Part shown: piece by piece, positions 44,773-47,700 of the stretch | Layout of the letters: every line of letters begins with the position of its first letter | Numbering within the stretch: the stretch's first letter is position 1 | Source of the DNA: Jatrophihabitans sp. | Lineage (GTDB): Bacteria > Actinomycetota > Actinomycetes > Mycobacteriales > Jatrophihabitantaceae | NCBI GenBank assembly: GCA_036399055.1 | Contig: DASWNX010000014.1 | Location: 1-64,000, forward strand | Length of the DNA: 64,000 nucleotides | Direction: 5' to 3' | Position numbers and translations under genes: made by a program | Notes under the pieces: generated by a model | Databases searched by the model: none | The model's input: only the letters and a program-made list of their open reading frames with translations | Told to the model about the DNA's origin: nothing

Positions 44773-47700
44773 TCAGTAGCCGTCAGCGCTCGGCTGCCGG
44801 ACAGCGGTCGCCCGACCGCCCGCCCGGGTGGTGGCCGCGCTCGTCCGTCGCACGGTCTTGGCAGCCGTGGTCTTGGTAGCGCTGGTCTTGGCAGCACTGG
44901 CCTTGGCTGTGGTTGTGGCTGGGCTGGCCTTGGTCGCCTTGGCTGGGCTGGCCTTGGCTGCCTTGGCTGGGCTGGCCTTGGCTGCCTTGGCTGGGGTGGC
45001 CTTGGCCGTGCCGTTCTTGGCCGTGCCGTTCTTGGCCGTGCCGTTCTCGGCTGGGGTGACCTTGGCCGTGCCGTTTCTGGTGGCCGTGGTCTTGGCGCTC
45101 ACCTTGGTGACCTTTGCCACTGACTGCTTCACCGGCGCTGAGCCGTTGCTCGCGGCGGCCACGGGCTGGCGCACCTTGCGCGCCGGCTTGGCGGATTGCT
45201 CACCGGCGCGCTCGGACTCCAACCGATCGGACTCCAACCGATCGGCCAGGATGCCGGCCAGGAACTGCCCCGTGTAGGAGCCGGCCACCCGCGCCACGTC
45301 CTCCGGGGTGCCCTGGGCCACCACCGTGCCGCCGCCGGAGCCGCCTTCGGGGCCCATGTCGATCACCCAGTCGGCGGTCTTGATGACGTCGAGGTTGTGC
45401 TCGATGACCATCACCGAGTTGCCCTTGTCGACCAGGGACTGCAGCACCGCGAGCAGCTTGGACACGTCCTCGAAGTGCAGGCCGGTGGTCGGCTCGTCGA
45501 GCACGTAGATGGTGCGCCCGGTGGAGCGCTTCTGCAGCTCGCTGGCCAGCTTCACCCGCTGCGCCTCACCCCCGGACAGGGTCGGCGCCGGCTGCCCGAG
45601 CCGCACGTAGCCCAGTCCCACGTCCACCAGGGTCTCCAGGTGCCGGGCGATCTTCGAGATCGGCCGGAAGAACTCCGCCGCCTCCTCGATCGGCATGTCC
45701 AGCACCTCGGAGATCGTCTTGCCCTTGTAGTGCACCTCCAGGGTCTCCCGGTTGTACCGGGCGCCCTTGCACACCTCGCACGGGACGTAGACGTCGGGCA
45801 GGAAGTTCATCTCGATCTTGATGGTGCCGTCGCCGACGCAGTTCTCGCACCGACCGCCCTTGACGTTGAAGGAGAACCGGCCCTGCAGGTAGCCGCGGAC
45901 CTTGGCCTCGGTGGTCTCGGAGAACAGCTTGCGGACGTGGTCGAAGACGCCGGTGTAGGTAGCCGGGTTGGACCGCGGGGTGCGCCCGATCGGCGACTGG
46001 TCGACCCCGACCACCTTGTCCAGCTGGTCTATCCCGGTGACCCGCTTGTGCCGCCCCGGCGGCATCTTCGCGCCGTTGATCTTGTTGGCCAGCGTCGCGT
46101 GCAGGATGTCGTTGACCAAAGTGGACTTGCCCGAGCCCGACACGCCGGTCACGGCGACGAACACCCCGAGCGGGAAGCTGACGTCGATGTCGCGCAGGTT
46201 GTGCTCGCGAGCGCCCTCGACCACCAGCTCGCGGCCGGCGGTCACCGGCCGGCGGATCGCCGGCACGTCGATAGCCCGGCGGCCGGACAAGTAGCCGCCG
46301 GTGATCGAGTCCTTCGACTCCAGCAGATCCTCAAGGGTTCCCGAGACGACCACCTGGCCGCCGTGCTCGCCGGCCTGGGGCCCGATGTCGACGATCCAGT
46401 CCGCGGCCCGGATGGTGTCCTCGTCGTGCTCGACCACGATGAGGGTGTTGCCCAGGTCGCGCAGCCGGATCAGGGTGTCGATCAACCGGCGGTTGTCACG
46501 CTGGTGCAGGCCGATCGAGGGCTCGTCGAGGACGTAGAGCACCCCGACCAGGCCGGCGCCGATCTGGGTGGCCAGCCGGATCCGCTGGGCCTCGCCGCCT
46601 GCCAGCGTGGCCGCGGCCCGGTTCAGCGACAGGTAGTCAAGCCCCACGTCGACCAGGAAGCCCAGCCGCGAGTTGACCTCTTTGACCACCCGGACGGCGA
46701 TCATCTCCTCGCGCTCGGTCAGCCGCAGGCCGGCCAGGAACTTCGCGGCCTCGCCGATCGACAGGGCGCAGATCTCGGCGATGGACTTGCCGGCCACCGT
46801 GACCGCCAGGATCTCGGGCTTGAGCCGGGTGCCGCCGCAGGTCGGGCAGTCGACCTCGCGCATGAAGCCCTCGTACTTTTCCCGGCTCCAGTCGCTGTCG
46901 GTCTCGGCGTGCCGGCGCTCCAGCCACGGCACCACGCCCTCGTAGCTGGCGTAGTAGGACCGCTCGCGGCCGTAGCGGTTCTTGTACCGGACGTGCACCT
47001 GCTCGGAGCTGCCGTGCAGCACCGCCTTCTGGGCGCGGGCCGGCAGCCGGTCCCACCGGGTCTGCACGCTGAAGCCGAGCTGGTCGCCCAGGCCCTCGAG
47101 CAGCCGCAGGAAGTAGTCGCTGTTCTGGCCGTTGGCCCACGGGGCGATGGCGCCGTCGGCCAGCGACTTCTCAGGGTCGGGCACCAGCAGCTCGGGGTCG
47201 ACCTCTTTGCGGGTGCCGATGCCGGTGCACGCCGGGCAGGCGCCGAACGGGGCGTTGAACGAGAACGACCTGGGCTCGAGCTCGTCGATGGCCAGCGGGT
47301 GCTCGTTCGGGCAGGCCAGCCGCTCGGAGAACCGCCGCTCGCGGTGCGGGTCGTCCTCTGGCAGGTCGACGAAGTCCAGGATCACCATGCCGCCGGCCAG
47401 GCCCAGCGCGGTCTCGACCGAGTCGGTGATGCGCTGCTTGCTGGAGGCGCGGGCGGTCAGCCGGTCCACCACCACCTCGATGGTGTGCTTCTCCTGCTTC
47501 TTCAGGGTCGGCGGCTCGGTCAGCGAGTAGTTGACGTTGTCGACCCGGACCCGGGAGTAGCCCTTGGTCTGCAGGTCTGCGAACAGGTCGACGTACTCGC
47601 CCTTGCGCTCGCGGATCACCGGGGCCAGCACCTGGAACCGGGTGCCCTCGGGCATCTCGAGCACCCGGTCGACGATCTGCTGCGGGGTCTGCTTGCTGAT

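Follow-up and report, generated by a model that had tools for sequence, protein, structure and literature searches.

What does a lysine-rich tail of 154 residues do at the C-terminus of a damage sensor? The question is raised by uvrA in a stretch of 64,000 nucleotides from Jatrophihabitans sp. (contig DASWNX010000014.1; hereafter the window), where the reading frame continues well beyond the conserved protein. We favour, with a probability of about 0.6, the reading that this disordered, basic lysine-repeat tail adds non-sequence-specific DNA affinity to the housekeeping UvrA and so aids its residence on DNA and its search for damage.

Results and Discussion

An intact uvrA gene with a long basic extension

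The open reading frame at 44773-48081 on the reverse strand, with a GTG start and no internal stops, encodes an intact UvrA of 1102 amino acids (Table 1). The NCBIfam UvrA model NF001503 covers residues 3-945 with 1580 bits (cut-off 1147) and TIGR00630 covers residues 5-930 with 1498 bits (cut-off 729.8), and the Pfam domains UvrA_DNA-bind and UvrA_inter (PF17755 and PF17760) both score above their cut-offs. The best solved chain, 3zqj, which we take to be the Mycobacterium tuberculosis protein, aligns over residues 2-949. An earlier note on this DNA had placed the end of the canonical protein at about residue 948, and a boundary at 948/949 agrees with where NF001503 and the 3zqj alignment stop. 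The sequences GLSGSGKSS (32-40) and GVSGSGKST (646-654), GGEAQR (495-500 and 837-842) and the cysteines C745/C748/C768/C771, which we assign to the P-loops, the signature motifs and the C-terminal zinc finger of UvrA, respectively, are invariant across 16 aligned UvrAs except for T654, which is nearly so.

The uvrB gene lies on the same contig as uvrA, and both UvrB and UvrC have normal ends without a tail. In Streptomyces coelicolor, uvrA is presented as a presumed LexA-regulon gene (PMC6637917). Allowing up to two mismatches, we find no LexA-type box between uvrA and the gene upstream, and the 41 matches in the whole window are what chance would give (40.8 expected). In a plasmid search no record among the matches listed (5 of 389) reached 80% query coverage.

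Table 1. Position of uvrA, its tail and tail-coding repeats, and uvrC in the window
Feature	Position	Strand	Basis
uvrA conserved core, residues 1-948	45238..48081	-	NCBIfam, Pfam, solved-chain alignment
UvrA C-terminal K/A/T/S/P-rich tail, residues 949-1102, and stop codon	44773..45237	-	ORF reading, composition
15-bp doublet coding DRLES repeat, mixed-charge tail start	45212..45245	-	DNA repeat and translation
15/30-bp tandem repeat coding NGTAK units, residues 1003-1032	44986..45075	-	
24-bp tandem repeat coding KA[ST]PAKAA units	44916..45006	-	
uvrC, next gene downstream, same strand, without lysine-rich tail	42763..44718	-	

The tail contains 20 K, 10 R, 7 D/E, 41 A, 23 T, 14 S and 9 P, which gives a net charge of +23; across all 795 stretches of 154 residues in the core, the maximum is a net +10 and 12 K. 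NGTAK occurs four times, KASPAK twice, and KATPAK and KASPAT once each, three motifs fit [ST]PxK, and the lysines are mostly 3 to 5 residues apart. The window's tail nowhere has two adjacent lysines; KK pairs are present in several relatives' UvrA tails (for example at loci L040 and L049). These counts bear out the earlier description of a Lys/Ala/Thr/Pro-rich tail with about 20 lysines and four NGTAK units, and the underlying DNA is, as was claimed, built from short repeats, with tandem units of 24, 15/30 and 15 bp. The tail is thus confirmed as a real feature of the protein. It is predicted to be disordered: an AlphaFold2 model has pLDDT below 50 over residues 961-1102, although the model itself is moderate (mean pLDDT 66.3 from 16 sequences) and some core segments also fall below 50.

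The tail is kept within the genus and comes and goes elsewhere

We surveyed UvrA ends in three sets: loci from named records (the best 80 of 592, possibly biased towards tails because one of the six search patterns was taken from the tail), 24 genomes of the same family (matches in 21 genomes, 22 rows) and 119 genomes across the phylum (117 with a match), the last two each including the window's own genome. Everything after the position equivalent to residue 950 of the window's UvrA was taken as tail, and a tail was scored as basic if it had at least 40 residues, K+R of at least 15% and K+R at least twice D+E. Basic tails were found in 26/80, 12/22 and 5/117 rows, respectively, where the second and third counts include the own genome and the two, one and one rows cut by contig ends are scored as lacking a basic tail.

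Leaving out the own genome and the cut rows, basic tails are present in all seven readable relatives of the same genus, in 4/13 of the same family, 1/4 of the same order, 3/5 of the same class and 0/106 in the other classes of the phylum, where nine of the 106 have a tail of at least 20 residues. An eighth genome of the genus, 63% complete, gave no UvrA match. Of the four tails in the same family, L108 clusters in the tree with a row from Frankiaceae and may come from a foreign contig. The possibility raised in the earlier note, that near relatives lack the tail and that it stems from faulty assembly, was run as a check and is answered by the seven same-genus relatives; an assembly error or frameshift is unlikely, since tails occur in relatives, whose assemblies are different ones, and both ends of the tail are common to the window and its nearest relative.

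UvrAs with a basic tail are also found in Streptomyces, Kribbella and further Actinomycetes. Among the named species (best 80 of 592) they are carried by 19 of 24 Streptomycetaceae, by none of seven Pseudonocardiaceae and by none of six Streptosporangiaceae, whose tails have length zero after residue 950; nine Mycobacteriaceae have short ends of 9-29 residues with a net charge of +5 to +8, and 35 of the 80 tails are shorter than 20 residues. In a FastTree phylogeny with many weak forks, built for 207 rows from the final 260 residues of the core, tail presence requires at least 16 changes, compared with a mean of 37 and a least value of 33 in 100 label shuffles. The trait is therefore inherited, yet often gained or lost, and since many lineages do without it, basic repair does not require the tail.

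Such a pattern could also arise by near-neutral growth, in which slippage in G+C-rich DNA extends a tolerant C-terminus and the K/A/T content is a by-product with little function. The tandem repetition of short units in the tail-coding DNA, the rapid turnover of tail sequence and length, and the absence of a tail from many lineages are consistent with this explanation, as is the window's tail being the longest of 219 rows (a count with duplicates, in which the window itself stands twice). Against it, all 13 paralogue loci fetched, out of 32 secondary places, stop at the end of the core, give or take a few residues; two of them are further UvrA-like genes of the own genome and 11 come from elsewhere. 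A tail on every UvrA paralogue or on every Uvr protein is likewise ruled out for these 13 and for UvrB and UvrC.

The tails have more lysine and fewer acidic residues than base composition predicts

The composition of the tails bears on near-neutral growth most directly. The 42 distinct tails with 40 residues or more contain 17.2% K, 8.6% R and 2.8% D+E; from their own base composition one would expect 2.9%, 18.6% and 8.3%. Lysine stands at about six times, and D+E at about a third of, the expected value, which speaks against near-neutral growth. Arginine is below expectation, and the K+R sum is only slightly above it (25.8% against 21.5%), a near agreement that near-neutral growth would account for. 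The other reading frames of the tail DNA make the same distinction: frame +1 would encode 0.7% K and 42.4% R, even more basic than the real frame, and frame +2 would encode 0.8% K, 15.1% R and 20.3% D+E. The frame control therefore favours lysine and not basic charge as such. The case is strong that the tails use lysine where arginine would be expected and that they have few acids, and weaker for total basic charge.

K+R exceeds D+E in 41 of the 42 tails, which again is more than near-neutral growth would lead one to expect, and in 62 of 72 shorter ends of 10-39 residues. The sole tail of at least 40 residues without net basic charge is L131, from a distant genome of the phylum, whose UvrA finishes with a stretch rich in acidic residues and then a short basic end. 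Given these departures, and the near-constant charge of the genus described below, we regard near-neutral growth as an unlikely source of the tail, though it is the least unlikely of the rivals considered here. The tail is kept as a class within the genus, is lysine-rich and acid-poor beyond expectation, and is absent from the paralogues examined; this is what the preferred reading, an addition to DNA affinity, starts from.

Charge is held while length varies in the genus, but not in every lineage

In the eight tails of the genus, length ranges from 75 to 152 residues and net charge only from +19 to +24. When lengths were reassigned among the tails' charge densities and the spread of net charge was compared, this constancy had an exact permutation p of 0.0004, and p lay between 0.0014 and 0.022 with other boundaries or with one of each near-sister pair dropped. 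Lysine (8-20) and arginine (6-14) compensate for each other in these tails. The constancy depends partly on where the tail is taken to begin, since net charges spread over 14-25 when the first 15 residues are dropped and over 11-22 when the first 30 are dropped.

Seven groups were put to this permutation. Constancy was also found for the 12 tails of the family (p 0.0001), for nine short mycobacterial ends (p 0.0001) and for all 41 net-basic tails (p <0.0001); it was non-significant in Micromonosporaceae (p 0.098), and the value for the whole of Streptomycetaceae is invalid because one of its tails has zero length. In the 19 Streptomycetaceae tails (named species, best 80 of 592) charge rises with length (p 0.43), which rules out strict charge constancy everywhere. 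The claim that charge is conserved and length is not, here compared between species, therefore holds in the genus and fails in Streptomycetaceae. Since the tails are related by descent, the p values flatter the case, and we read them as support for, not proof of, selection on charge in some lineages. HU tails likewise become less charge-dense as they lengthen, so the pattern is not special to UvrA.

The tail turns over quickly. Across the final 260 residues of the core the nearest relative shows 98.5% identity, yet its tail has 113 residues against 152; a stretch near the tail start and the last residues, SADGY, are common to both, and the repeats between these shared ends have been replaced. 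Of the aligned tail codons, 57 are identical, 21 carry silent differences and 33 encode a different residue.

A further reading would treat the tail as a charge-budgeted, tunable tether, in which selection fixes a net charge of about +20 per subunit whatever the length and HupS-like lysine acetylation switches the protein between scanning of HU-packed DNA and release. We consider this improbable; if true, it would constitute a lineage-specific layer of nucleotide excision repair.

UvrA probably joins the actinobacterial lysine-repeat tails

The C-terminal tail of linker histone H1 is Lys/Ala/Pro-rich and disordered, and the window's tail, with its three [ST]PxK motifs, resembles it in composition. 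Unlike H1, UvrA has no globular winged-helix (linker-histone) domain. A Pfam search at E 0.001 assigned no family to the tail alone and 13 families to the whole protein, linker histone not among them; the term 'histone-H1-like' used in the earlier note is thus apt for composition, and homology to H1 is ruled out.

Closer parallels are found in actinobacteria. The tail of HupB is reported to be indispensable for nucleoid association in Mycobacterium smegmatis (PMC5676037), acetylation of lysines in Streptomyces HupS cuts its DNA affinity about twofold (PMC11229371), and the lysine repeats of TopA are said to make the enzyme highly processive and its complex with DNA more stable (PMC7398561, PMC5676037); all three tails are reported to keep their protein on DNA (PMC5676037, PMC11229371, PMC7398561). 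Streptomyces Ku and the sigma factor HrdB are reported to carry lysine repeats as well (PMC7398561), and prokaryotic DNA-binding proteins in general are enriched in lysine-rich low-complexity regions (PMC6821194).

The UvrA tail extends the C-terminus beyond a complete core with low-complexity, K/A-rich sequence. Like those of HupB and HupS it is actinobacterial, K/A/P/T-rich, made of short degenerate repeats and placed on a DNA-binding protein, though UvrA is an ATPase damage sensor and not a nucleoid protein. HupB and HupS are described with KK doublets and PAKK-KAAK motifs; the window's tail has no KK, a feature of the described members that may not be necessary. TopA offers the likeness of an enzyme with a lysine-repeat end, present also in the own genome, where this end differs from the UvrA tail in being KK-rich and denser in charge (net 0.31 against 0.16 per residue).

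UvrA was not found among the lysine-repeat carriers named in the available part of PMC7398561, none of the papers listed by a literature search describes a UvrA tail in its title or the beginning of its abstract, and neither 'tail' nor 'lysine' occurs in the available main text of a review of bacterial repair machines (PMC7835731). The solved UvrA chains that we found end at the core or shortly after. We take these chains to be the E. coli, Bacillus-type, Thermotoga and mycobacterial proteins. The best reading is that UvrA joins the known actinobacterial lysine-repeat tails, with no prior report for UvrA found in these sources.

The own genome encodes two HU proteins (tails of 154 and 189 residues) and a TopA with tails of composition like that of UvrA. 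A third HU-family protein of this genome, L248, is tail-less, as are 14 other HU loci among the 42 (of 43 places) that we read across the family; the tailed and tail-less kinds coexist. At least one HU with a lysine-rich tail is encoded in each of the 20 genomes with a readable UvrA, including those whose UvrA is nearly tail-less, and the longest HU tail per genome ranges from 41 to 237 residues. The UvrA tail is therefore part of a device present on several DNA proteins, and it comes and goes on UvrA separately. In the HU proteins L272 and L275, from one genus of the family, the lysine repeats are preceded by a charged, mixed stretch, and the total tails have 237 and 120 residues.

The shared composition admits another explanation, that the tail serves nucleoid targeting or a condensate, in which UvrA co-partitions with HU-type tails while its affinity as a single molecule is not raised. 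The similar tails on the two HU proteins of the own genome are in keeping with it, as is a weak correlation over the 20 genomes between the charge on the UvrA tail and that on the most highly charged HU tail (rho 0.45, p 0.045). The tail lengths, by contrast, are uncorrelated (rho 0.32, p 0.17), and the retention of tailed HU alongside nearly tail-less UvrA argues against a joint role. We judge this explanation very unlikely.

The HU and TopA tails came from family searches and were not reported when the UvrA tail was used as query against the own genome. That search gave six places including UvrA itself. The one fair match besides UvrA (E 0.0098) is a contig C30 protein with AGPAK-type repeats, a 325-residue open reading frame (L089, 543-1520, reverse strand) with an (AGPAK)n stretch and no Pfam matches, flanked by what we presume to be xseA-like and ispH-like genes. 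A match on contig C26 lies in a frame of a stretch with a long opposite-strand open reading frame that to us looks like a peptide synthetase, and the three remaining matches are weak.

A probable role in DNA residence and search

From the reports on HupB, HupS, TopA and lysine-rich regions, we infer that the UvrA tail probably makes transient, sequence-independent contact with DNA. It would touch the DNA backbone electrostatically and so lend UvrA extra affinity irrespective of sequence; at about +23 per subunit, the dimer would carry about +46. This would lengthen residence and prolong the search over short ranges on HU-covered DNA ahead of UvrB loading, with a possible benefit to repair. Lysine content, basic charge and disorder, and not the sequence of the tail, appear to be what selection maintains, which would leave the repeats behind the tail free to expand, contract or be replaced. 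The earlier interpretation, that the tail may keep the damage sensor on compacted DNA, is partly supported, by the charge check in the genus and by the like tails on HU and TopA.

The abundance of Lys, Thr and Ser would also suit a protein-interaction or regulatory arm, contacting UvrB, RNA polymerase or a chaperone, or subject to acetylation, phosphorylation or pupylation, rather than a grip on DNA. The acetylation of HupS lends this some weight; however, that analogy links modification to DNA affinity, and modification would hence act together with DNA binding. By eye, no motif beyond composition is common to the genus, with the caveat that both ends of the window's tail are recognisable in the nearest relative. 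An arm of this kind seems to us improbable as the main role.

If the tail does set DNA residence, damage search in Streptomyces and relatives departs from the textbook picture, and repair is tied to the charge device that these bacteria use on HU and TopA.

Other repeat-bearing proteins in the window

Two further proteins of the window contain repeats encoded by short DNA units. A DEAH-type helicase with a DUF3418 domain (Pfam; 56668-60993, forward strand), which we take to be HrpA-like, has about ten (H/R)P(K/Q)(T/S)(E/Q) pentads near its N-terminus, encoded by a 15-bp DNA repeat at 56880-57036; it too acts on nucleic acid and carries a tail of charged repeats, here at the opposite end to that of UvrA. 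The gene at 21805-23601 (reverse strand), whose product is presumably serine/threonine protein kinase-like, contains a 39/57-bp DNA repeat at 21926-22080 that encodes an (APTSS)n-type region.
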